A stretch of DNA of 35,563 nucleotides. Source: Candidatus Zixiibacteriota bacterium (GTDB taxonomy: Bacteria > JAAXHH01). The notes under the pieces are model-generated. The model worked only from the letters and a program-made list of their open reading frames with translations. It was not told where the DNA came from and did not search any database. Both the position numbers and the translations under genes were made by a program. Positions 2,563 through 16,825 of the stretch are shown here, one piece after another (position 1 is the stretch's first letter; every line of letters begins with the position of its first letter). The stretch is from assembly GCA_016867335.1 (NCBI GenBank), contig VGJU01000008.1, positions 1 to 35,563 of the forward strand, read 5' to 3'.

Positions 2563-4503
2563 CTATGGGGCTGTTGCGGTGGATTTACCCCAGAAGCGTA
2601 CCAGCAGGGTGAGCGCCGTCGCGCCCAAAAGAAGAGACACCCACGGATTGACACCGTATGCCGACGGCAGATCGCCGAGCAGAATACCCACCATCCCTAC
2701 CGTCATCGCGTATGGCATCTGGGTGCGCACATGGTCGATATGATCGGCTCCGCAAGCCATCGAAGACATGATGGTCGTGTCCGAAATGGGAGAGCAGTGA
2801 TCGCCCCATACCGCGCCGCTCAACACACCGGCGATGGTCCCTAAAAGCAGTGTATGCGCTTCGCCGCCCGTGATCCCTGCGGCCTGCGCAACCCCCACGC
2901 AAAGCGGAACCACTAGCGGCGTAACCAACGCCATCGTTCCCCACGACGTTCCGGTGGCAAAACTGACCAGACAGGCAATGACAAACGTCAGCGTCGGCAC
3001 AAGGTGCGGCGACAGAAACCCGGTGGCTACCGACACGATATACCGGGCCGTTTGCATCTCCTCACACGCCGCCACAAGCGCCCAGGCCAGCACTAAAATC
3101 ACCACAGCCAGAAACACCGACTGCGCCCCGGCCAGCCAAGCATTCAGACAGTCGGTAAGACGCATCTGGCGCAGACCGACGGTTATCACAAAAGCCAGCA
3201 GGGTGCCGATGAGGGAACCCCATAGCAAAGCCCTGCTTCCGTCCGCCTTGCCAAAAACCGTCCACAGGTCCGCCGTGGCCGTATCCGCTCCACCTGCGAC
3301 AAGCGCATCTCGCCCCGTAGCCCACATCCCCCAAAACGTCACCAGCATGACCGTCAGCAAGGGTATTGCCGCGTATATCCAGTGACGAACCTGCCCGTCT
3401 ACGGGTTTGAGTTGGCTGTCGGCATCTCCGCTCAACGGCGCGGCTCCGTCGGCGAGGAGCTTGCCTGTCGTCCGCGCTCTGCGCTCGGCGGGAAGCATGG
3501 GACCAAAGTCGCGTTGCATCACGGCGATCAGGACCACGAAAAACATCATCAAGAGTGGATAAAAACGGTAAGGGATCGTCTCCAAAAAAATCTGATAGGC
3601 GTTATAATCCAGTTGGACGCTTCTCAGGGCATCTCCGATCAACCCCACTTCGAAGCCTATCCAGCCGGAAATAAGCGCCACACTGGCAACCGGCGCGGAG
3701 GTGGCGTCCACGATAAACGAGAGTTTTTCGCGGGAGATACGCAACCGGTCCGTAATCGGGCGCATCGTGTTGCCGACGACCAGCGTGCTGACAAAGCCTT
3801 CGAAAAAGATGATCATGCCAAGCGCCCATGTCGCCAAATGGCCGGAGCGCGGGGTTTTTGCCCATCCCGTCACCACCTCGACCACACCGTAGACCGACCC
3901 GTTACGGGCGATGATGCCGATCAGCCCGCCAAGAACAAGGATGACAAGCAGTACCGAAGCATTCCAACTTGAGGAAAGACTTCCGAGGATCAGTTGATCG
4001 CCCCAGCGCAAAACAGCCAGAAACGGGTTGTATCCGGCGATAAACAGCGCGCCTAAAAGACCGCCTGCGGCGAGTGCCGCAAGCACCTGACGAAACGCCA
4101 CCGCCACCACGATGGTCAAGAGCGGGGGAAGAAGCGTCATCCATCCGGGCAGGACGCGCAACGACCGATCCACGATCTCCTCGCCGATCTGCGTTTGAAC
4201 CGTATACACGCCTGCCACCGAAACCAAAAGCGTTTCGGGAGGCGAAGGCTGTGCGCCGATCAGAAGCCCGGTGCGTGCCGTTGCTTCCACCTCCTGGCCT
4301 TTGTCGTCAAAAACCCGGAACGTATAAGGCGTCACATCCGTCGGTTGCTGCGCGGGCGTCTCGATCGATACGGTAAAAGGGATGTCGGACACCCCCATGC
4401 CGGGCAGGTGTACGATCGGCGAACCGGTCTGTGCGTACACGACGTCCGGAAGAACGAGCAACGCGGTGGCGATCCCGGCGGAGAGGACTGCGGATTTTAG
4501 AAT
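2563..4503 (-). CDS. NhaC-family Na+/H+ antiporter with N-terminal exported domain
   Basis: Polytopic inner-membrane sodium/proton antiporter of the NhaC (COG1757) type. After a leader of about 25 residues ending DVVYAQT there is an extracytoplasmic beta-rich segment of about 80 residues. Many hydrophobic helices follow from PGWMTLLPPLL onward, with family-like motifs GTSWGTMALVTPL and GDHCSPISDTTIMSS. No ATG or GTG gives a proper leader. The best fit is ATT at 4503, six bases after a perfect GGAGG, which yields a typical signal peptide (ILKSAVLSAGIATALLVL). TTG at 4461 is the fallback start but cuts the leader and has no ribosome site. The start and ribosome site lie inside the left copy of the 23-bp repeat that bounds the carotenoid block. 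Confidence 0.85.
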   Translation of the reverse strand: MLKSAVLSAGIATALLVLPDVVYAQTGSPIVHLPGMGVSDIPFTVSIETPAQQPTDVTPYTFRVFDDKGQEVEATARTGLLIGAQPSPPETLLVSVAGVYTVQTQIGEEIVDRSLRVLPGWMTLLPPLLTIVVAVAFRQVLAALAAGGLLGALFIAGYNPFLAVLRWGDQLILGSLSSSWNASVLLVILVLGGLIGIIARNGSVYGVVEVVTGWAKTPRSGHLATWALGMIIFFEGFVSTLVVGNTMRPITDRLRISREKLSFIVDATSAPVASVALISGWIGFEVGLIGDALRSVQLDYNAYQIFLETIPYRFYPLLMMFFVVLIAVMQRDFGPMLPAERRARTTGKLLADGAAPLSGDADSQLKPVDGQVRHWIYAAIPLLTVMLVTFWGMWATGRDALVAGGADTATADLWTVFGKADGSRALLWGSLIGTLLAFVITVGLRQMRLTDCLNAWLAGAQSVFLAVVILVLAWALVAACEEMQTARYIVSVATGFLSPHLVPTLTFVIACLVSFATGTSWGTMALVTPLVVPLCVGVAQAAGITGGEAHTLLLGTIAGVLSGAVWGDHCSPISDTTIMSSMACGADHIDHVRTQMPYAMTVGMVGILLGDLPSAYGVNPWVSLLLGATALTLLVRFWGKSTATAP

Positions 4504-4516
4504 GTGTATCCTCCGT
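4494..4516. repeat. 23-bp direct repeat, left copy
   Basis: Identical over 23 of 23 bases, in the same orientation, to 9232-9254. It covers the GGAGG ribosome site and the ATT start of the antiporter. Together the two copies bracket the carotenoid genes, as expected for an insertion that duplicated its target or a site-specific attachment core. Confidence 0.85.
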
Positions 4517-4636
4517 TTCTGGCTAACTATTGGCGATAGCGGTCATCCATAGTTTGGCTATGAGGACAGAAAGCCGGGTTGGAAGAGGGAAATTCGAAGA
4601 AACAGGTAGCAGCCCGTTAGCGTATACAAAAACATG

Positions 4637-6106
4637 TTACCCACGTTCGAACCTTTGAATCAGCTCGCAAGTGATCTGCGCTGAAAGAAGCACGGTGGGG
4701 GTCCCACCGCCAGGGTGCGAACTCCCACCGACGCGGTACAACCCGTCATACCGGGTGGACTTATTCGACGGACGTAGAAAGGCATTCCGCCAGCCATGTG
4801 AATGTGCGCCGTATATCGCCCCGCCAGGCATTGAGTAGGTCCCGGCAATTCGGCGTGGCGTCCAGACATCGCTCACGACGATGTCCGATTCGATATCCGG
4901 AAAGCCACTTCGGCGGAGACGCTCGAAAACACGGCACCGCGCCGTACCGATCTGCTCCTCATCCCACAGATCCCCATCATTGGCCGGGGCATTGGCCATG
5001 ATGAAAAGCGTTTCGCCTTCACCAAGCACGAGAGATCGGTCACTGCGGCTCGGGGTATTCACGTAAACCGTTGGGTCGTCAGGAAAACAACGTTCGTCGA
5101 ACAGTTGAGCGAACTCGCGCCGGTAATCTGCCGAAAAATACAGCGAGTGATGGGATAGTCCGGGGAGTTCCCGTCGGAGTCCCAACAGGAAAACGAGTCC
5201 GGACATGGAGCGATGGGTGGAAGGCATACCCTGCGCGTTGGATTCACCGAGCAGTTTGGGTCCCTCCGAAGCGTCGCCATTCATGACGACTACATCGCCA
5301 GGTAAACGATTGCCGTCGGCCAGATGTACGCCTTTCACTTTGCGGTTCTCGTGTTCAATACGCACAACCTGCGCCCGGGGGATCAGGTCTACACCCATTG
5401 TAGTGGCCAGCTCAAGTAACCCTTGAACGATCCGATACAGGCCACCACGCGCATACCAGCCGCCGAACGCGAACTCCAAATAGGGGATGATGGCGAGCGT
5501 CGCTGGCGCAGCGTATGGCGAGGAACCTACATAAGTCGGATAGCGGTCATAAAGCTGTTGCAGATAAGGACTCTGGAAATGGGCGGCGACCGTTTTGTGG
5601 TAATTACCCCAACCATAGCGAAGGGGCAGATGCCGTAACACACCGAGGTCCGTTGCACGAGGCCTATCAAGCGGACGGCGCTTGAGAAAGGTTTGCCGCG
5701 AAACGTCATAGAGACGCGCACCCAGTCGCAGAAACTTGAAGAAGCCTTCTACATCACGTGGCTCAATCATACGCACGGTTGGCAGCCACTCAGGCAACGA
5801 GGAGGTGTAGGTAAAGCGCACCCCATCGTCGTAAACATACTGGGCAAGCGGGTGCATCTGTATGAGTTCAACGTGATCCTGCAAACGGCTGCTGGCTGTC
5901 TCGAATAATTCTTGAAACACCCAGGGCATGGTAATCAGCGACGGTCCGGTGTCAAACTGAAAGCCTGCCTGGCTCCAGTAATTCATTTTGCCACCGAAAG
6001 TGTCACCTTGCTCGCAGACGGTAACCTGCCAACCGTTAACTGTCAGCCGTAAGGCCGTTGCCAACCCCCCCAGGCCCCCGCCAATGATCACCGCACGTTT
6101 CTTCAT
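4637..6106 (-). CDS. CrtI/CrtD-type carotenoid desaturase (paralogue 1)
   Basis: FAD-dependent phytoene-desaturase family protein (489 residues from ATG 6106). The dinucleotide-binding GGGLGGLATAL is at residues 9-19, followed by the family motif FDTGPSLITMPWVF and a C-terminal FAD-proximal segment GGSSHPGGGTPTVLLSAQ. The SSHPGGG form resembles CrtD, CrtN-b and isomerase-like members more than plain CrtI, so it may act on a later, already desaturated or hydroxylated carotenoid. This is inference. The start at 6106 is chosen over upstream in-frame codons because the flavin motif then begins at the usual place and GAGGCG precedes it. It is the last gene of the SRPBCC-crtB-crtI-desaturase operon, 81 bases after the previous gene. 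No lycopene cyclase is in the block. Confidence 0.88.
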   Translation of the reverse strand: MKKRAVIIGGGLGGLATALRLTVNGWQVTVCEQGDTFGGKMNYWSQAGFQFDTGPSLITMPWVFQELFETASSRLQDHVELIQMHPLAQYVYDDGVRFTYTSSLPEWLPTVRMIEPRDVEGFFKFLRLGARLYDVSRQTFLKRRPLDRPRATDLGVLRHLPLRYGWGNYHKTVAAHFQSPYLQQLYDRYPTYVGSSPYAAPATLAIIPYLEFAFGGWYARGGLYRIVQGLLELATTMGVDLIPRAQVVRIEHENRKVKGVHLADGNRLPGDVVVMNGDASEGPKLLGESNAQGMPSTHRSMSGLVFLLGLRRELPGLSHHSLYFSADYRREFAQLFDERCFPDDPTVYVNTPSRSDRSLVLGEGETLFIMANAPANDGDLWDEEQIGTARCRVFERLRRSGFPDIESDIVVSDVWTPRRIAGTYSMPGGAIYGAHSHGWRNAFLRPSNKSTRYDGLYRVGGSSHPGGGTPTVLLSAQITCELIQRFERG

Positions 6107-6187
6107 GTTGCGTTCGCCTCGCTCGAATGACCGCCAGTGTGACAGATTTAGCCGCCCGGCCCGCACCACGTGACGCCTCAATCACAG

Positions 6188-7753
6188 TCAGGTGCTGGGA
6201 AATGGCGAAGTGGGAGATTCTAATGGCGCGTTGTGCATCGGAGCAGGCACTTCAGTTCCAGGGTCTGAAACCCTTTGCCGAATCCTTTCTGCTGTCAGCT
6301 TGCCACTTAACACAACCATCGGCAGGCCAGTGCCAGGCGTGGTACTGGCCCCGGTATAATAAAGGCCATCCACCTCTCTCGCGTAGTTGCGTGGACGGAA
6401 AGGACCAACTTGGAACAAGGTGTGTGCAACGCCGAAGGCCGAGCCGTCATAGAGACCGAAGCGCTCTCGCCAATCATGCGGCGTATAAACTTCCTCTACC
6501 ACGATGCGTTCTGGCAAGATGACTATCCCATGCTGACGCAACCGCTCCAGTATTTGCATTCGGACGGCTTGAGTGGTGGCTTGCCAGTCCACGTCTTTCA
6601 GCTTGCTCAGGACTGGCGTCGGTGTCAGGATGAACAGCGTTGTGTCTCCTGGTGGTGCAAGGTCGGAGTCCGTTGCCGAGGGGACGCTCACATAGAAAGG
6701 TAGATCACCCGGAATCTGGTTGCGTTTGAACAGGTCACTGTACGTGGCCTGACTGTCTTTTGGCAGGAATATCGTGTGGTGCCCAAGGTTTTCAATGGCG
6801 CCGCGGATACCCCAGTAAAAGGTCAGCACACCAGGCGTCATGGGAAGACGGCGTGTTTGGCGGTGCTGTTGTTTCGAAAAGACCTCCTTCGCGATTAAAT
6901 CTGTGTTTGTTGTTGGTAAATCCACGTTGGAGACGACTATCGGCGCTTTGTGTGTGTGACCGTTGGATAGCTCCACACCGGTTATCCGCCTGTTCTCTAT
7001 GAGAACCCGTCTTACTCGCTGTCCCGTGTGAATCACAGCGCCAAGTTCGCAGGCAAGTTTTTCTATCCCGGTGACCAGACTGTAGATGCCACCTTTCGGC
7101 ATCCACAACCCGTAAGCCAGTTCACCATAAGGTAAAATTGAAAAAAGCCCCGGTAGCCTGTAGGGCGACCCACCAAGATACATGCCGTATGAACCGAGGG
7201 CTTCGAGCAAATAGGGACTGCTAAAGAATCGTCGCAATTCGCCGTCGAGTGATCGCCACAGGCTCAAGCGGCGCAATTCGGAGAGTGAAAGCGCTTTTAA
7301 CCATTCGATTGGATGATCAACATTTCGGTTGATTAGCCGACCGAAGGCCATCTGGTACTTGGCCTCCGCATCGCTCAAGAAGGCCAGGACAGAGGTCCTC
7401 GACCCGGGCGCGACCCTTTCGCACTCCTCCAGCAAGCGTTGCAGATTGCTCGACAGCGTGAATCGGGTTCCATCCCGCCATTGAAAACTCACGGAAGGAT
7501 CTACCGGCAGCAGCGTCACGTAGTCGGAAAGCTTACGACCGGCAGCCTCGAACAGTTGCTCAAAAACCCAGGGATAGTTAAGCAGTGATGGACCAGTGTC
7601 AAATCGAAAGCCTTCGCGCTCAATCAAATTGGCACGACCACCGACGCGCTCGTTAGCCTCATAGAGCGTTACGGCAAACCCGGCCAGTTGAAGGTGAATC
7701 GTCGCACTCAGACCCCCCAGCCCACCGCCAATAACGAATACGCTGTTATCCAC
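6188..7753 (-). CDS. crtI: Phytoene desaturase CrtI
   Basis: Flavoprotein that introduces double bases into phytoene, giving neurosporene or lycopene. It has 521 residues, normal for CrtI. GGGLGGLSATI lies at residues 9-19, FDTGPSLLNYPWVF follows near 52-65, and the C-terminus carries the CrtI signature YTGASTTPGTGLPMVVLSG. A proline-rich tail of about 25 residues follows the conserved core. The start codon is GTG at 7753, since the fold begins immediately there; no strong ribosome site is visible. It lies 34 bases after crtB and is presumably co-transcribed. A C30 (diapophytoene) substrate cannot be excluded from sequence alone. Confidence 0.92.
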   Translation of the reverse strand: MDNSVFVIGGGLGGLSATIHLQLAGFAVTLYEANERVGGRANLIEREGFRFDTGPSLLNYPWVFEQLFEAAGRKLSDYVTLLPVDPSVSFQWRDGTRFTLSSNLQRLLEECERVAPGSRTSVLAFLSDAEAKYQMAFGRLINRNVDHPIEWLKALSLSELRRLSLWRSLDGELRRFFSSPYLLEALGSYGMYLGGSPYRLPGLFSILPYGELAYGLWMPKGGIYSLVTGIEKLACELGAVIHTGQRVRRVLIENRRITGVELSNGHTHKAPIVVSNVDLPTTNTDLIAKEVFSKQQHRQTRRLPMTPGVLTFYWGIRGAIENLGHHTIFLPKDSQATYSDLFKRNQIPGDLPFYVSVPSATDSDLAPPGDTTLFILTPTPVLSKLKDVDWQATTQAVRMQILERLRQHGIVILPERIVVEEVYTPHDWRERFGLYDGSAFGVAHTLFQVGPFRPRNYAREVDGLYYTGASTTPGTGLPMVVLSGKLTAERIRQRVSDPGTEVPAPMHNAPLESPTSPFPST

Positions 7754-7787
7754 AAACCAGTCCCATGGGTTGAAATGGCCGCTCTAC

Positions 7788-8819
7788 CTACCAGGATAGA
7801 TACGCGAACGGCAGACGCCAGTACTTGCTCGTCGGTAGTCCTCTGAACTTGTCCCTAAAGGGTACACGCTCTCGATGCTGTATCCCAAATGGACTGGCTA
7901 TAATACGCGTGTTGAGCTGCCGATAGACCGTGATACAGGCCTGAACCGCTGTTCGACTGTCTGGTGCAAACGCATCGAGATCAGCCAGAGCCTGATCATA
8001 GTGATCTTCCGCCAAGTTGGCCATATGGCCGATCACACGGTGTATGGCGGCCTGTTGCCCTGGATTCATGGTGTCGAGTTCGTTGATCCCTTCCTCACGC
8101 AGAAGATCGAGCGGTAGATACAATCGCCCGCGCTTCTGATCCTCTGCCACATCACGGAGGAAATTCGTCAGTTGCAGGGCTGTCCCCAGATGGCGAGCAC
8201 TCGTCAGAGCTCGCTCAAAATCGTGACTTCCGTTGGAGCCGTAAACATAGGTTAAAAAATAGCCGACAACAACCGCGCTTCCATAGACATAATGGTCTAT
8301 CAGATCATCCATGGTGCTGAAAACGCGGGGTGTGACATCCTGACGCATCGCCATAAGAAACGAGCGATAGTGTTCCGACGGGATTCCGGCGTCCCGCACG
8401 ACTTGTGTAAACCCGGCCAGAAAGCAGGGGGCATGCGCCGCTAAGGCAGTTTTGATGGATCTGGCCCCAAGAGCAGTTTCATAGTCCTCAGCCCACCGGT
8501 CAAGGCGCGCTGTACGTTCCTCGGGTGTGAGCGCAAACGTGTCCACGATCTCATCCGGATACCGGACGGCGGCATAAATGGCTTCCACCCTGGCGCGCTT
8601 GTCGGGCGGCAGAAAACGGGTAACCATGAAAAAGCTGGTACTGTAAGTGCGTAGCGTGCGGCGCGCCTGTCGGACAATGATGTCCCATGCTGCAGTCTCG
8701 GATGGGGTTTGAACTGCGAGGTGGTGCGTCCGCTGTTCAAGCCGGTTCCACTCGGCATCGCTCCAGGCTTCACGAGGCCGTACGTTCAGAATGTTACTCA
8801 AAAGCGTTTGAATCATCAT
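7788..8819 (-). CDS. crtB: Phytoene synthase (trans-isoprenyl diphosphate synthase fold)
   Basis: Head-to-head prenyl synthase that condenses two C20 (or C15) diphosphates, the entry step to carotenoids. The first aspartate-rich motif is RYPDEIVD and the second is QLTNFLRDVAEDQKRGRLYLP, both intact. An in-frame ATG exists at 8924, but the extra 35 residues look non-homologous and overlap the SRPBCC remnant. ATG at 8819 or 8816 follows a GGAG, so a product of about 343 residues is preferred. It is followed by crtI and the second desaturase on the same strand. CrtB versus squalene or diapophytoene synthase is not settled by the motifs, though the two CrtI-type partners favour carotenoid synthesis. 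Confidence 0.9.
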   Translation of the reverse strand: MMIQTLLSNILNVRPREAWSDAEWNRLEQRTHHLAVQTPSETAAWDIIVRQARRTLRTYSTSFFMVTRFLPPDKRARVEAIYAAVRYPDEIVDTFALTPEERTARLDRWAEDYETALGARSIKTALAAHAPCFLAGFTQVVRDAGIPSEHYRSFLMAMRQDVTPRVFSTMDDLIDHYVYGSAVVVGYFLTYVYGSNGSHDFERALTSARHLGTALQLTNFLRDVAEDQKRGRLYLPLDLLREEGINELDTMNPGQQAAIHRVIGHMANLAEDHYDQALADLDAFAPDSRTAVQACITVYRQLNTRIIASPFGIQHRERVPFRDKFRGLPTSKYWRLPFAYLSW

Positions 8820-8913
8820 CAGCTCCAAGGCTGTCCCGGTAACCTTCCCTAAAACCTTTTCGCCCGTCCGATCTCCATCCGTACACACCGCATAGCGAAT
8901 GGTGAAACCAGAA

Positions 8914-9180
8914 TCAGCCCACATTCCCGTTATTGCAGCCTGTCTGTTTAGCCTCCTGCTCCACAGTTCCCAGCAGACGCGCCGTCATTGTTGAACGGTA
9001 GTCAAAATGAGATTTAGCCAACGGCGAATAAAAAAGGTGTGGGCGATCCGGCCGAGGACACCGTACGGAATCGCATACTCAACCACGTCCCGCATCAGAA
9101 CCCCGCCCCCAGCTCCTGGAAGGATAGCGCATTTTTATGTTCTTCTGATATGAAATATCGCTCTTTCACCCTGCGGGATC
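8914..9180 (-). pseudogene. Decayed SRPBCC (START-like) ligand-binding protein
   Basis: Reading the minus strand from about 9180 to the TGA at 8914 recovers an SRPBCC-like C-terminus only by switching frame. One frame gives YFISEEHKNALSFQELGAG, then stops. The next gives MRDVVEYAIPYGVLGRIAH and FFIRRWLNLI. The third gives FDYRSTMTARLLGTVEQEA and runs to the stop. The VEY-P-G-LGR and FDYR signatures are typical of the family's C-terminal helix. The shifts fall in a GGGGGCGGGG run near 9101-9110 and a TTTT run near 9003-9006, so slippage mutations or homopolymer sequencing errors fit equally. The N-terminal half is not recognisable. SRPBCC genes often sit beside carotenoid or other lipid genes. 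Confidence 0.6.
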
Positions 9181-9231
9181 TACGGCTAATTCAGCGAAAA
9201 ATCTGTCTCATTAAATATAGGCACACAGGGA

Positions 9232-9254
9232 ATTTTAGAATGTGTATCCTCCGT
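9232..9254. repeat. 23-bp direct repeat, right copy
   Basis: Identical to 4494-4516. On the minus strand it still carries a GGAGG followed six bases later by ATT CTA AAA, but the frame then runs into a TGA after 16 codons. It therefore looks like the severed 5' end of the antiporter gene left on the ctaA side of the inserted carotenoid block. Confidence 0.85.
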
Positions 9255-9337
9255 CTCGGGGGTGCGTGGCCCCTTGATGTCGCCGCAGATGTAGCGGGGG
9301 ACCTTCTTCTCGATCTTCGGCTTCCCGTGTCTCGCCC

Positions 9338-10285
9338 TTACGGAGCCGTCGTCCTTGCCGGTTGCGCCCGAACGACCAGTATGGCGTATATCTGGATGCA
9401 AATCAACACCGAGGCCCCGGTCAGATGCAACACTTGCGCCGGTGGCGGCAGTCCGGCATACGCCAGCACGACGCCCAGCCCGATCTGAACGACGACACCG
9501 CCCAGCAGGATACGGCTAAGCTGTGATATCGGCCCGGTGATACGGCGTCGGTACATCTCGCGGAACAGCCATCCGGCCGCGATCAGTACCACCCAGGACG
9601 ACGAACGGTGGATATAATCGATAGGGCCTACCTTCGCCAGCCATTCGGAGCGTGGCAGTCCACCGGGATCCTTGATAAACGGGTCGATGCCCTCGCGTAC
9701 CTGCGTGCCGAGCACTGTCTGAATAACGGTAAGCGCAAAAAGCACCATGCAGAGCCAGTATGCTGTTTTTTTTGCTTCCGGCGGGAGACCGGCATCCGGC
9801 GCAGGGTACGCCATAAACACCGCATACAGCAAGACGCCGATCAGTACGATGGCCAGCAACATGTGCGCCGTTACCACCACCGGATGTAACTCGGAGCGTA
9901 CCACCTGCCCGCCCAGCCAGCCCTGAAAGGCCACCAGCACGACGCTGAATACCGCACACCAAAAAATACGCGGATGAACACGTCGATGCGGAAACGCAGC
10001 GATGGCCGTCCCCAGCACAAGAAAGCCGATCAACACGCCGACCATCCGGTTTAGGTACTCGGTCCACATTTTGACCGGGTTAAACTCCCGGACGTCGTAT
10101 CCTTTTGCCTCTACATAGGCCATATCCACTTCGGCAAGACTGGACGGCGGAAACCAGCACCCCCAGCATTTGGGCCAGTCCGGACACCCAAGTCCCGCAC
10201 CCGTAACCCGTACGAGACCGCCGATGGAGATAAGAACGACCGTGGCGAGCACCGTGATCAGCGCAATTTTTCGAAAAGCGTTCAT
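9338..10285 (-). CDS. ctaA: Heme A synthase (CtaA/COX15)
   Basis: Integral membrane enzyme that oxidises the heme O methyl to heme A for aa3-type cytochrome oxidases. It has 315 residues and about eight hydrophobic helices. GAGLGCPDWPKCWG near the N-terminus is the family's conserved cysteine-containing loop. The LHPVVVTAH, YIHRSSSW and VLHLTGAS segments hold heme-ligand-type histidines. The ExxH motif of the first helical bundle reads EYLN, so one classical histidine is replaced by asparagine. ATG at 10285 is chosen over GTG at 10321 because the first helix starts right after it. No oxidase subunit lies nearby. Its stop is 84 bases from the repeat, suggesting it once directly preceded the antiporter gene. 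Confidence 0.93.
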   Translation of the reverse strand: MNAFRKIALITVLATVVLISIGGLVRVTGAGLGCPDWPKCWGCWFPPSSLAEVDMAYVEAKGYDVREFNPVKMWTEYLNRMVGVLIGFLVLGTAIAAFPHRRVHPRIFWCAVFSVVLVAFQGWLGGQVVRSELHPVVVTAHMLLAIVLIGVLLYAVFMAYPAPDAGLPPEAKKTAYWLCMVLFALTVIQTVLGTQVREGIDPFIKDPGGLPRSEWLAKVGPIDYIHRSSSWVVLIAAGWLFREMYRRRITGPISQLSRILLGGVVVQIGLGVVLAYAGLPPPAQVLHLTGASVLICIQIYAILVVRAQPARTTAP

Positions 10286-10325: not shown

Positions 10326-11072
10326 TTATGCGGATGGGAAATTCAACGGCGTTTTACCCCCGACACAGGGCGGACGCAGCAAGTCGCGCTGAAGATCGGT
10401 GGTCGCCTTTGCCCTAAGCGCTTCCAAATGGTCCAGACTGGCCCACGTGGAATGTCCGGGAGAATACTTGTACAATAGCGCACGCCGCCGGTTTTTTTTT
10501 GACATCCATGTTGTGGTCCCGTGTATGAGCGCCTCGGTAAAAATGAGCATATCTCCCGCGCGAAACGACGGATTGACCACAAGATGCGAATCGACCGGCG
10601 GAAGAAAATATCGGTTGGCCTTATGGCTTCCCGGCACGCAAATAAAGCCTCCGTCACCCGGATGGATGTCTTCGAGCGCATAGATGGCGACGATAAGACC
10701 GTTGTGCATCTTTCCGTCAAACCACTGATACTGGTGCTCGCCATGATCGGTACGCGGACCGCCGTGCAGGTTGGGCCGAGCAAGACCGCGCTCCACGGTT
10801 CCGGTATCCATTTGGAGACCGTAGGCGTGGTCGTAGCGCATCCAATCACCGATCATCTGACGCATGATGGAAAGTGTGCGCGGATGTGCCATCAATTCGA
10901 GAAAACAGGGATCCAAATCTATAAACCCAAAGCTAAAAGTGTCCTCCTTACCCAGCCGTTTTAGGTCTTCGTCGATGATCGCATTCATCCTGCGGACATC
11001 GTCCGGCGAGATAAGATCGCGATAGACGATCACACCGTTCAGGTCAAACTCGAAAAGTTCCGCCTCGGTCAT
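10326..11072 (-). CDS. Phytanoyl-CoA dioxygenase (PhyH) family protein 1
   Basis: Probable Fe(II)/2-oxoglutarate-dependent oxygenase of the PhyH family (248 residues). The core GDGGFICVPGSHKAN and the distal histidine region ALIHGTTTW plus RRRALLYKYSPGH are clear. The usual HxD metal pair is not: the region instead reads LHGGPRTDHGEHQYQW, so the first metal ligands are uncertain. ATG 11072 follows AGGAGG by six bases, a strong ribosome site. It is the last gene of the leftward catabolic arm, 37 bases after the second PhyH gene and 40 before ctaA. The substrate is unknown; bacterial members hydroxylate or demethylate diverse small molecules. Confidence 0.85.
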   Translation of the reverse strand: MTEAELFEFDLNGVIVYRDLISPDDVRRMNAIIDEDLKRLGKEDTFSFGFIDLDPCFLELMAHPRTLSIMRQMIGDWMRYDHAYGLQMDTGTVERGLARPNLHGGPRTDHGEHQYQWFDGKMHNGLIVAIYALEDIHPGDGGFICVPGSHKANRYFLPPVDSHLVVNPSFRAGDMLIFTEALIHGTTTWMSKKNRRRALLYKYSPGHSTWASLDHLEALRAKATTDLQRDLLRPPCVGGKTPLNFPSA

Positions 11073-11109
11073 ACCCTGCCTCCTGAGGATGCACTGTTTC
11101 CCAGCCTGT

Positions 11110-12009
11110 CTACCGGATGCCCCCATTTTCTTTGAGCTTTAGTTGCTCCTCATACCACGTTTTGACGGGAAGGTCTTCCTCGCGTGGACGCCAGTGCCGC
11201 GAAATCGGATGCACGGGATCGTCACCCATGTAATTCTTCGCGCCGCCGTTCAACTCGCCGAGCAACTGGAGTTGAACGGGCGTACACCGAGCCAGCAATT
11301 CAGGCGATTGATGCAGATAGTCCGCGGGGCGTATCCAGCGATGGTGATACCCGTAATACAGACATTTTCGGGTTTTTACGGACAGGTTGGGCGTCAGACA
11401 GTGCCACAGCGCGGTACGCCACAACATCGCCGTTCCGGGTTTGACGTTGACCTCGAAAATCCGCGCCGGATCGATCGGATGTTCGGGGTCGTGGATACGT
11501 TTGGGAGACATAAGATGACTGCCCCGCACCACGCATATCGCACCCGCATTATGCTCCGAAAGGTCGGTAAGATAGTACCCTACTTTGACCTCTACAAAAG
11601 GTACGGCTCCGTTGGTGACCGGGTATCCAAAATCGGGGCCGTCCGAATGCCATGGGAAAAAGCTGTCCTTTGCGCCGAGTGGCTGATTGGCAAACTCCGC
11701 CGGACAGGGCGGTCTCACATCCATGTGCGAGGTGCGTATCTGGATGTTGGGACCGATCGCATCTACCACCATGGGAAACAGTACGGGGTGATCGATCAGA
11801 CGGAACAGTTCCTCGTGATGCGCCAGCGCGTTGCGCACCTGAAACGCCGCATCCGGTGCGATGTTCTGCATCTTCCGGTATCGGGTGTCCAAGTCGTTTA
11901 CCACTCCGACCAGCCGGTCTACCGTGTCCGGTGTCAGGGCGTTTTCGACAAGGACAAAGCCGTCTTCGTCAAACTGTCGCTGCTGGGATTCCGTCAGGAC
12001 AAGAGACAT
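11110..12009 (-). CDS. Phytanoyl-CoA dioxygenase (PhyH) family protein 2
   Basis: Fe(II)/2-oxoglutarate oxygenase family protein of 299 residues. The iron triad is visible: H121 and D123 in PWHSDGPDFG, and H203 in LWHCLTPNLS. R214 in SVKTRKC is a candidate 2-oxoglutarate carboxylate anchor. VVRGSHLM is the conserved turn before the distal motif. The ATG at 12009 is preceded by AGGGG. It starts 9 bases after the enolase-superfamily gene stop, so the two are tightly linked in one operon. The four PhyH proteins here are clearly divergent from one another, which suggests separate steps or substrates rather than recent duplication. Confidence 0.88.
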   Translation of the reverse strand: MSLVLTESQQRQFDEDGFVLVENALTPDTVDRLVGVVNDLDTRYRKMQNIAPDAAFQVRNALAHHEELFRLIDHPVLFPMVVDAIGPNIQIRTSHMDVRPPCPAEFANQPLGAKDSFFPWHSDGPDFGYPVTNGAVPFVEVKVGYYLTDLSEHNAGAICVVRGSHLMSPKRIHDPEHPIDPARIFEVNVKPGTAMLWRTALWHCLTPNLSVKTRKCLYYGYHHRWIRPADYLHQSPELLARCTPVQLQLLGELNGGAKNYMGDDPVHPISRHWRPREEDLPVKTWYEEQLKLKENGGIR

Positions 12010-12018
12010 AAAAAACCC

Positions 12019-13281
12019 CTAACTCCACAGCCGGTCCCATGGGCGGTCCTCGTTCCATTCGTCCGTCGTTTCGAAGAAACCGGGTACAGCCGGGTTGATA
12101 TGCGCCCGGACCGCCTCTTCGTTGAGGTCGATACCCAGCCCTGGGGCTTCGGGTACGTCGATAAAACCTCGCTGACAAATCGGGTTGGGCAGTCCGGTGA
12201 CGATATCGTTCCACCAGGATGCGTCCACATAGTGGTGTTCGAGACACATAAAATTTTCCGTAGCGGCGGCGCAATGTACGCTGGCCATCTGTGCTACGGG
12301 CATGGCGGCCATGTGCATCGCCATGGCGATGCCGTGTTCCTGTGCGAGATCGCCGATGCGTTTGGTTTCGAGAATACCGCCGGAAGTGGCAAGATCGGGG
12401 TGGCAGACCGACAACGCCTTTTTCTCGAACAGGTCGATAAACCCTTCTTTGAGATAGATGTCCTCACCCGTACAGATCGGGGTGTCGCACGAGTTTTTGA
12501 GACGCACGTACTGATCGGTAAATTGCCAGGGAATCATGTCTTCGAGCCAGGCAAGATTGTATCGGTCCAGCGCTTTGGCCAGCCGTATGCAGTCTTCGAC
12601 ACCGATATGTCCGAAATGATCTGCCGCAAGGGGAATCTCGTAGCCTACGATACTGCGGACCGTGCCCACGTAGTCGGCCAGCATGGAGATCCCCTTGTCC
12701 GTCAGCCGAATCCCGGTAAACGGGTGCATCACCGAATAGGTGTCGAGCATGCCGGACGGGGCGGCAAGTGTCCCCGGTTCGCGCTGTACCAAGTCGATGC
12801 CTACGTCCATTTTGAGAAAAGTAAAACCTTCGTCCATACGCGCCTTTAGTCGTCGGCCCATTTCGTGCGGATCGGGTGAACTGGTCGTATCGCAGTAAAT
12901 ACGGATTTTGTCGCGGAATTTGCCCCCGGCAAGTTGATAGGCGGGGACCCCGTATGCCTTGCCGGCCAAATCCATGAGCGCCATTTCGACGCCGCAGACA
13001 CCGCCGCCCTGCCGCGCATGGTGACCAAACTGTTTGATCTTGCGAAACAGTTTGTCCACGTTGCAGGGGTTTTCACCAAGGAGACGGCTTTTGAGCATGA
13101 GCGCATACCGCTTGCTCGCGCCGTCCCTTACTTCGCCCAGACCGTAGATGTCCTGATTGGTGTACAGTTTGATGAGGTTGCAATTTCCGATGGTTACCGT
13201 CCGCATGTCGGTAATTTTGAGCTCGCTCGGTCTTGATGCGGTACGGAGGCCTGCTTCTGTGGAATGACTGGCTGTGGACAT
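12019..13281 (-). CDS. Mandelate racemase/muconate lactonizing (enolase) superfamily enzyme
   Basis: TIM-barrel enzyme that abstracts a proton alpha to a carboxylate; many members are sugar-acid dehydratases. It has 420 residues, normal for the family. The three Mg2+ ligands lie at the ends of successive strands: aspartate in LAADHFGH, glutamate in AWLEDMIPW and glutamate in ICTGEDIYL. FLKMDVG holds the second-strand lysine, and MAMHMAAMP supplies a histidine near the seventh strand. ATG 13281 follows GGGAG by five bases; a GTG six bases upstream is less likely. It sits between two PhyH genes, which fits breakdown of a hydroxy or sugar acid. The exact reaction is not predictable from the visible residues. 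Confidence 0.9.
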   Translation of the reverse strand: MSTASHSTEAGLRTASRPSELKITDMRTVTIGNCNLIKLYTNQDIYGLGEVRDGASKRYALMLKSRLLGENPCNVDKLFRKIKQFGHHARQGGGVCGVEMALMDLAGKAYGVPAYQLAGGKFRDKIRIYCDTTSSPDPHEMGRRLKARMDEGFTFLKMDVGIDLVQREPGTLAAPSGMLDTYSVMHPFTGIRLTDKGISMLADYVGTVRSIVGYEIPLAADHFGHIGVEDCIRLAKALDRYNLAWLEDMIPWQFTDQYVRLKNSCDTPICTGEDIYLKEGFIDLFEKKALSVCHPDLATSGGILETKRIGDLAQEHGIAMAMHMAAMPVAQMASVHCAAATENFMCLEHHYVDASWWNDIVTGLPNPICQRGFIDVPEAPGLGIDLNEEAVRAHINPAVPGFFETTDEWNEDRPWDRLWS

Positions 13282-13353
13282 GAACACTCCCTGAGGGTTT
13301 CTGGGTTGGTTCCCCGTTTAATCGGCGGTTGTATTGGGGGGTTGAACCTGCCC

Positions 13354-14199
13354 CTACGATCCGGGGGACCATGAGGCGGGTGGGGTGATCGGTCCGTGAT
13401 CCCACACGGTCGGGAAAAAATGCCCCTTCAATTCCTCGCCGGGTTTTACGGTCACCCGGTGCTCCATTATATGCGTGCGGTTGGGTTCGTACCGCGTCCA
13501 TCCCGGCATGTAGTGGACCGCAATGGCGGGTCTTCCTTTTTGGGAGGGATTGGTCGGGCTGCCGTGCCACGTCAGACAGTGATGAAACATGCACTCTCCC
13601 TTTTTGACTTCGCACGGCACGATTTCTATTTTTTCCCCTGTCGGGACAAGCGACAGATCGGGGGTAGGAGAAAAATCGTCCGGATTCGTGCCGATGGTTC
13701 CGCCTTTGTGTGGCCCCCACAGATGGCTACGGGCCACCATGCGCATACATCCGTTTTCCGTCGTGGCGTCGTCAAGCGCCACCCATGCGCTGATCAGGTC
13801 CGCCGGTTGGATGATGGGCCAGTACGGGTGATCCTGATGCCAGTCGGTCGTCCCGCCCCGGACCGGGGGCTTGTACTGGACCTGATCGTGCCACACGCGA
13901 AGCACGTCCGTGCCGATCAACTGTGTCGCCATCTCGCAGATTTGCGGGTGATACAGATGCGCGCGGAACATATCGTCAGCTTGCCATGTGTTCACGATTT
14001 GGATCACCACAGGCTTGTCGCGATCGTCTTCTCCACCACGCATATTGCGCACCGCTTCGGCCTTTCCGCGCGACGTACCCGCGATGACCTGCATCATGCG
14101 TTCAAGGAGCCGGTCGGCCTCCTCGTCGTTGTATACGCGGCCTACGTTCAAAAAACCCCGCTCTTTGAACTTTTCGATCTGTGTCTCGCTTAACCGCAT
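13354..14199 (-). CDS. Phytanoyl-CoA dioxygenase (PhyH) family protein 3
   Basis: Fe(II)/2-oxoglutarate oxygenase family protein of 281 residues. H121 and D123 in TDWHQDHPYW form the first part of the iron triad. H212 in LTWHGSPTNPS is the distal ligand, followed by KGRPAIAVHYMPGW. ATG 14199 is preferred to ATG 14205 because GGGAG lies at a workable distance only from the former. It is 18 bases from the beta-propeller gene's stop and 72 before the enolase-superfamily gene, on the same strand. Confidence 0.9.
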   Translation of the reverse strand: MRLSETQIEKFKERGFLNVGRVYNDEEADRLLERMMQVIAGTSRGKAEAVRNMRGGEDDRDKPVVIQIVNTWQADDMFRAHLYHPQICEMATQLIGTDVLRVWHDQVQYKPPVRGGTTDWHQDHPYWPIIQPADLISAWVALDDATTENGCMRMVARSHLWGPHKGGTIGTNPDDFSPTPDLSLVPTGEKIEIVPCEVKKGECMFHHCLTWHGSPTNPSQKGRPAIAVHYMPGWTRYEPNRTHIMEHRVTVKPGEELKGHFFPTVWDHGPITPPASWSPGS

Positions 14200-14217
14200 A
14201 ATCATTCTCCCTTGTGC

Positions 14218-16015: not shown

Positions 16016-16825
16016 ATGACCGCCGCGTCCGGAACAGGCACGTTCGAAACGTTTGATGAAAACCGAACCGGGGAAATTGTTTCGGCTTTTCACCGCGACG
16101 GCTTTGTCCACATCCCGAACGTGCTTTCCGCCAAAGAGGTGGAGGCGCTCAAAAAGGCGGCGGACAGCGTATTTGCAGATCCACGCTGGAACGAAAACGA
16201 CAATCTGTACGGATTTGTAGCCGTGCGGTTGTTCGAAGCGGACCCGATTTTCGAATCCATGCTTACCCGCGAACCGATTATCGGACTGGTCGAACATATC
16301 CTCGGCAAAGACTGTCATCTAGTTGCCGAAAATCTGGTACGCAACGAACCCGGCAAAGCGATCGATTCGTTTCACGTAGACGATCTGTTGGTGTTTCCGC
16401 TTCCTCCGGAGATTCCGCGTTTCGATCCCCGCATCACCATGCCCGTTCATATCTTGACGGTTCAACTTCCGCTCACCGATATCCCCTCGATCGAGTACGG
16501 TCCAAGCGAATACGTGCCGGGCAGCCATTATTCAGGCAGAGAGCCAAATGATAAGCACCACCCGGTTTTTGAGGACACCCCCCCAGTTCCGGTCTTTTGC
16601 CGCGCCGGAGACATCTATCTGCACAACGGCCAGTGTTGGCATCGTGGTGCCCCCAACGGGTCGGACCGGACTCGGTATCTCTTTCAACTGGCCTATTCGC
16701 GGCGATGGGTTTCTCAGCGTTTTTATCCATTTGTCAACTACCGCTTGCCGGCGGAAGTGTATCACCGGGCGGACGAACGGCGTCGGCGGGTGCTGGGGTT
16801 TCATCCCAAAGGTGCGTACGGATAA
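16016..16825 (+). CDS. Phytanoyl-CoA dioxygenase (PhyH) family protein 4
   Basis: Fe(II)/2-oxoglutarate oxygenase family protein of 269 residues and the first gene of the rightward arm. H120 and D122 in DSFHVDDLLVF and H209 in QCWHRGAPNGSDRTRY complete the iron triad; the arginines after it could hold 2-oxoglutarate. The ATG at 16016 follows AAAGGAAGG by three or four bases, a strong though close ribosome site. The next gene, a Gfo/Idh/MocA dehydrogenase, begins 38 bases downstream. The oxygenase product could be the substrate of that dehydrogenase, but this is inference from order only. Confidence 0.9.
   Translation: MTAASGTGTFETFDENRTGEIVSAFHRDGFVHIPNVLSAKEVEALKKAADSVFADPRWNENDNLYGFVAVRLFEADPIFESMLTREPIIGLVEHILGKDCHLVAENLVRNEPGKAIDSFHVDDLLVFPLPPEIPRFDPRITMPVHILTVQLPLTDIPSIEYGPSEYVPGSHYSGREPNDKHHPVFEDTPPVPVFCRAGDIYLHNGQCWHRGAPNGSDRTRYLFQLAYSRRWVSQRFYPFVNYRLPAEVYHRADERRRRVLGFHPKGAYG

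Follow-up and report, generated by a model that had tools for sequence, protein, structure and literature searches.

How does a carotenoid operon come to lie between ctaA and a Na+/H+ antiporter gene that may once have followed it directly, and can the manner of its arrival still be read from the DNA? We examined this in 35,563 nucleotides of a contig from Candidatus Zixiibacteriota (VGJU01000008.1, assembly GCA_016867335.1; hereafter the window). Transferred operons mostly carry no trace of their entry route, and here the scar of entry seems to have survived down to the single nucleotide, one leader being preserved both as a dead and as a working copy; 16 genomes of the phylum were available for comparison. 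The locus is therefore a testable case of cargo-gene insertion without element-coded enzymes, a process so far argued mainly for restriction-modification genes. The repeat that bounds the block is confirmed, the insertion of the block is supported, and duplication of its target is plausible. The features are collected in Table 1.

Table 1. Features of the carotenoid block, its bounding repeats and its flanks in the window
Feature	Positions	Strand	Remarks
Na+/H+ antiporter (PF03553), flank	2563..4503	minus	ribosome site and apparent ATT start inside left repeat
Left repeat copy, 23 bp	4494..4516		holds GGAGG and ATT 4501-4503 (minus), apparent start of antiporter frame
Block between repeats	4517..9231	minus	4,715 bp
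crtI2, CrtI/CrtD-type carotenoid desaturase	4637..6106	minus	TIGR02734 337 bits (cut-off 238); at most 68% identity to Pyrinomonadaceae
crtI1, phytoene-desaturase family	6188..7753	minus	TIGR02734 440 bits; 60-67% to Acidobacteriota / Hydrogenedentota
crtB, squalene/phytoene synthase family	7788..8819	minus	PF00494 E 5.6e-59; about 57-61% to closest clusters
SRPBCC-like gene remnant	~8950..9113	minus	last third only, frameshift near 9010; N-terminal two thirds missing
Right repeat copy, 23 bp	9232..9254		GGAGG and ATT 9239-9241 (minus); frame closes after 16 codons
Spacer, ctaA stop to right repeat	9255..9337		taken as native
ctaA (COX15-CtaA), flank, native	9338..10285	minus	MR-PhyH2-PhyH1-ctaA order also in G015

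The block is enclosed by two copies of the 23-mer ATTTTAGAATGTGTATCCTCCGT. An earlier note on this DNA had described them as identical and in the same orientation, and this was borne out: both copies are perfect and their edges are sharp, with matching extending 0 bases to the left and 0 to the right of the limits in Table 1. On the minus strand either copy reads ACGGAGGATACACATTCTAAAAT, with a GGAGG and, six bases on, an ATT. When up to 3 mismatches were allowed, the organism's own genome (4,379,653 bases in 431 contigs) held these two copies and no third, the window gave the same two matches only, and the 15 other genomes of the phylum (16 searched including its own) held none. Two simple accounts of the repeat were rejected on these counts, namely a common ribosome-site leader, many unrelated copies of which the earlier note had named as evidence against an insertion, and a leader conserved in relatives (0 of 15). 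None of 200 order-3 Markov simulations of the window produced an exact direct repeat longer than 19 bp. In 463.6 kb of the genome's own sequence, taken as 23 pieces, no exact direct repeat other than the 23-mer reached 20 bp with more than 2 kb between its copies within a piece. In a 36-nt extension of the repeat, 8 of the 13 bases outside the 23-bp core match and all 5 mismatches lie outside it. We rejected a longer, decayed duplication on this pattern, which would arise with a chance of 0.003 if mismatches were evenly spread, a rough figure for an extension picked by the tool.

The antiporter gene has its ribosome site and first codons within the left copy. The earlier claim that the left GGAGG and ATT are in use and the right ones a dead end agrees with the reading frames: the frame of the right-hand ATT ends in TGA, and no further antiporter sequence stands beside that copy. 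To judge from the ribosome site and from the antiporter orthologue in genome G002, which has ATG at the position matching ATT 4501-4503, the antiporter start appears to be ATT. The next standard start downstream is a TTG, which would truncate what we read as a signal-peptide-like stretch in the first residues. The distance from the ctaA stop to the antiporter start without the block, put at about 90 bases in the earlier note, is near that value and computes to 96 (from 9338 to the right-hand ATT).

Between the repeats there are only crt genes, a gene remnant and shadow ORFs. The reading frames of crtB, crtI1 and crtI2 are intact, and the three form a crtB-crtI-crtI operon of squalene/phytoene-synthase and CrtI-family genes in one direction, with both desaturases above the NCBIfam TIGR02734 cut-off; the 7 other ORFs of at least 80 aa in or reaching into the block had no Pfam match. 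The remnant lies about 120 bp inward of the right block end, upstream of crtB, and was recognized by tblastn (49% and 46% over 37 aa) and by a profile match in two frames. "SRPBCC" is our assumed label for it, and the relative in locus L097 has no Pfam match. Its decay may have come before or after insertion. On contig C53 of the same genome (L218:9536-11470), an epimerase-like gene is followed by an SRPBCC-like gene that is intact and 45-50% identical to its crt-linked counterparts; this gene is a separate relative with no DNA match to the remnant.

The block looks foreign in its relationships. The other phylum members, 15 genomes that were searched within sets of 59, gave at best a 26% match to CrtI1 (E 1e-22, in G015) and 31-32% matches to CrtB, the latter in a two-copy pattern that we take to represent hopanoid synthase genes. 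Relatives that keep the crt genes in place without the repeat, which the earlier note had named as evidence against an insertion, did not appear among the phylum genomes searched. Of 194 pattern matches in named genomes, 109 encoded a relative; the top ones among the best 80 of these 109, which were kept, belong to Acidobacteriota and Hydrogenedentota (60-66%). In a CrtI1 tree of 49 rows, the window sequence clusters with L092 (Acidobacteria) and L098 (Hydrogenedentota), and the group around them consists mostly of Acidobacteriota. The branch joining these three has a support of 94/80, below the tree tool's star, and we therefore claim no single donor phylum. The crtI homologues on plasmids were distant, at most 34% among the matches listed (15 of 241 records).

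Composition also sets 4517-9231 apart from its flanks, a comparison that the earlier note had proposed. In tetranucleotides, the chunk bounded by the repeats was the most deviant of 63 windows of the contig and third of 92 against a genome sample (2 of 91 native windows were higher). Taken together, the three crt genes deviate in codon use with a chi2/df of 5.0, a value that none of 191 triples of adjacent native genes attained; the flanking antiporter (chi2/df 1.25) and ctaA (0.83) are native-like. Taken singly, CrtI1 was equalled in deviation by 7 of 237 genes, CrtI2 by 24 and CrtB by 19, the last two being only mildly deviant, and the codon signal is thus strong jointly and moderate gene by gene. 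A boundary score trained on the block is circular and serves as illustration only. Four lines of evidence thus give good support to the insertion of a foreign block: its distribution, its nearest relatives, its joint codon use and a change of composition that matches the repeats.

The block is a rearranged crt fragment and not a complete cluster. We compared 80 crt loci, 44 with a CrtI1 of at least 43.5% identity (L092-L134 and L169) and 36 more distant. The 44 closer loci, of Acidobacteriota/Hydrogenedentota type, likewise have homologous crtB, crtI1 and crtI2 in one direction. At least 43 of them carry crtB, at least 40 an alpha/beta hydrolase of the L097 type, at least 40 a family-2 glycosyltransferase and at least 34 a CruF-like gene, all lower bounds because some loci end inside the cluster. 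crtI2 is present in 36 of the 44, in every case 1.6-3.7 kb from crtI1, and 29 of the 36 more distant loci have both genes with a gap of 1.0-2.6 kb. Whereas the two are separated by 81 bp in the window, they are adjacent in none of the 65 related loci that have both, and the genes that stand between them in related clusters are missing from the block.

For the cluster glycosyltransferase, the organism's own genome gave generic matches only. At L213:4712-6385 its contig C104 carries a CruF-like gene (PF04240) and, after it, an epimerase-like gene (DUF1731), the latter of a kind that also neighbours the L097 cluster. With this CruF homologue lying away from the block, the carotenoid pathway of the organism is split between at least two places. 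Moreover, CruF was found in this genome alone of the 16 in the phylum and has native-like codon use, so that the genes of the pathway may have arrived on more than one occasion. Internal relocation from C104 is possible in view of the CruF and epimerase-like pair, but C104 shares no DNA with the block and the pair is native-like in codon use.

As for the insertion site, G015, a genome of the same taxonomic order, keeps MR-PhyH2-PhyH1-ctaA at 53-76% identity, with an opposite-strand ORF after ctaA. It has an extra gene between PhyH1 and ctaA (L084:2364-3179), presumably creatininase-like, where the window has 40 bp. Among 13 other genomes searched (9 in the phylum, with G008-G013 left out), close antiporter homologues occurred only in G002 (65%) and G015 (58%). 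The direct ctaA-antiporter junction that the earlier note expected in relatives without the crt genes is absent from both, the sole phylum members found with a close antiporter: in G002 the ctaA contig ends 280 bp past the gene and the antiporter contig has another gene upstream, and in G015 a gene other than ctaA precedes the antiporter. No empty site was found among the genomes searched, which include none of the same genus. With ctaA and the antiporter apart in G002 and G015, a direct ancestral junction is something that we infer from the repeat alone, and the ancestral gene order could have been different, given that no relative shows the adjacency.

Traces of a mobile element were sought in and around the block. 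The earlier note had seen no integrase or transposase and no clear inverted ends, and our searches concur: none of the 28 window ORFs tested had a match to a family of transposases or integrases, and a search for inverted ends yielded nothing convincing. Thus neither the terminal inverted repeats and transposase of a DDE or composite transposon, nor the inverted ends, Cas1 or PolB of a casposon, are present in the block; among the 28 ORFs there is no integrase in or beside the insert, as in an island moved by a tyrosine or serine recombinase; and the window contains no tRNA. A viral origin was rejected, viral contigs having no exact 23-mer and phages no DNA match to the block; the right part of the block had none in plasmids. 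Rfam gave no match at E up to 1 over 4400-9500, and scans for promoters and terminators (3 versus 2.7 expected and 6 versus 5.3 expected, respectively) showed no excess over shuffles. Classical Ku end joining was rejected, no Ku gene having been found in the genome.

On balance, we think that a foreign, already rearranged crt fragment was inserted in the antiporter leader by a host-mediated route, with duplication of a 23-bp target. The fragment (SRPBCC remnant, crtB, crtI1 and crtI2) would have entered the 5' leader and first codons of an antiporter gene that then stood 96 bases after ctaA. Because 23 bp of the leader would have been duplicated on insertion, the antiporter would have kept its ribosome site and start, and the dead copy would have stayed beside ctaA. 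No element-coded enzyme would be left or needed. The 23-bp repeats, together with the lack of inverted ends and of a recombinase, limit the choice of mechanism. The likeliest route would be host-mediated: a staggered break filled around a captured fragment, a template switch re-copying 23 bp, or capture of a circle. As classical end joining is disfavoured by the missing Ku gene, template switching, alternative joining and circle capture would remain; we infer both the duplication step and the enzymes. All genes run in the same direction, and the antiporter is therefore probably now transcribed from the crt operon, a co-transcription suggested by this arrangement. The event was probably recent relative to the 53-65% protein identities to members of the family and order, since the dead copy on the right still matches the working one at all 23 positions.

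The same repeats might instead be the attL and attR of an eroded mini-island, a circle integrated site-specifically whose integrase was lost or acted in trans. We regard this as possible but rather unlikely. Islands are typically flanked by short direct att repeats, and integrase-less examples exist, according to the available text of PMC3191183 and PMC5426353; the start of the target gene was left intact, and the 8 matching bases of 13 outside the core might be arm remnants. Since the block lacks the genes that lie between crtI1 and crtI2 in related clusters, it is not hard to picture an integrase having been lost with other genes. Against this reading, the ORFs tested hold no trace of one, the window has no tRNA, and no further 23-mer was found in the rest of the genome or in the 15 other phylum genomes; viral contigs had no exact copy. 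Neither the right part in plasmids nor the block in phages finds a DNA match. Of the insertion of about 4.7 kb with target duplication that the earlier note proposed, the insertion stands on the four lines of evidence given above, and the duplication is not separable from an attL/attR pair.

We think it improbable that the repeat and the block arose independently of each other. A change of gene order would then have brought the antiporter, and an older local rearrangement would have copied or shuffled its leader. Such a history would suit a ctaA-antiporter order unseen in relatives and antiporter surroundings that vary among genomes; however, the repeat edges coincide with the change of composition, the right copy has no further antiporter sequence alongside, and a dead copy identical over 23 bp means that the copying was not old. 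An assembly artefact, in which the contig fuses two genomes or misresolves a repeat, has to be considered for a 431-contig draft with an estimated contamination of 5.26% and a block of foreign composition, but it would require two false joins sharing one rare 23-mer. There is no N in the contig, the three crt frames are intact, and the flank order is that of G015, and we consider an artefact very improbable.

Target duplications of ordinary insertion sequences and transposons are shorter than 23 bp. The perfect, sharp-edged repeats found here are longer than this usual range, and insertion with long target duplication fits the locus better than casposons or ordinary insertion sequences do. Insertion with long (variable) target duplication comes from a comparison of H. 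pylori strains (Nobusato et al. 2000, Gene 259:99, as cited in PMC1643837, PMC3031569, PMC3154945 and PMC4978471). In the available passages of these citing papers, the cases are likewise gene blocks between direct repeats, with a proposed insertion that duplicates the target; they are mostly restriction-modification genes, and two strains were compared, whereas the present block carries a carotenoid operon as its cargo and its empty site is a reconstruction. For casposons, the accessible part of PMC4046053 gives target duplications of 1-27 nt with a median of 15, a range that includes 23 bp, but terminal inverted repeats are present in almost every one of them, and casposons carry Cas1 and PolB; no such feature was seen here.

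The microcin H47 island of E. coli, as the available text of PMC3191183 and PMC5426353 describes it, is also a small block between direct repeats with no recombinase gene of its own. Its repeats are 148 and 144 bp long with 76-77% identity and a longest perfect stretch of 20 bp, in contrast to the single perfect 23 bp here, and its excision was detected by PCR, whereas the window block is known from sequence alone. Transposed genes in Arabidopsis likewise often lie between direct repeats of genic host sequence, and insertion of a circle was proposed for them; they differ in being eukaryotic, in having many repeats of more than 30 bp and in that donor sites were identified for some (PMC2869330, in the part available). 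The mobility of carotenoid genes is already known, with horizontal transfer reported in several lineages in the accessible text of PMC2889829; a literature search joining carotenoid genes with direct repeats, insertion and genomic islands found no paper on the scar at this site. It is a long shot, but a transposase-free bacterial process may have put a whole operon into a ribosome-site leader and duplicated exactly that leader, keeping the downstream start under new transcription, and such duplications of leaders might be a widespread, unrecognized mark of operon capture.

Two further features were observed. A GAAG/TTTGAAG motif is repeated in intergenic-looking stretches of at least two of the genome's own contigs (L174:16009-17252 and L213:3545-3570). 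In the window itself, 10326-14205 holds an enolase-superfamily gene set among three phytanoyl-CoA dioxygenase-like genes, all on one strand, the gene at 13354-14205 being named from its sequence and not by a Pfam match; another such dioxygenase-like gene lies at 16016-16825.
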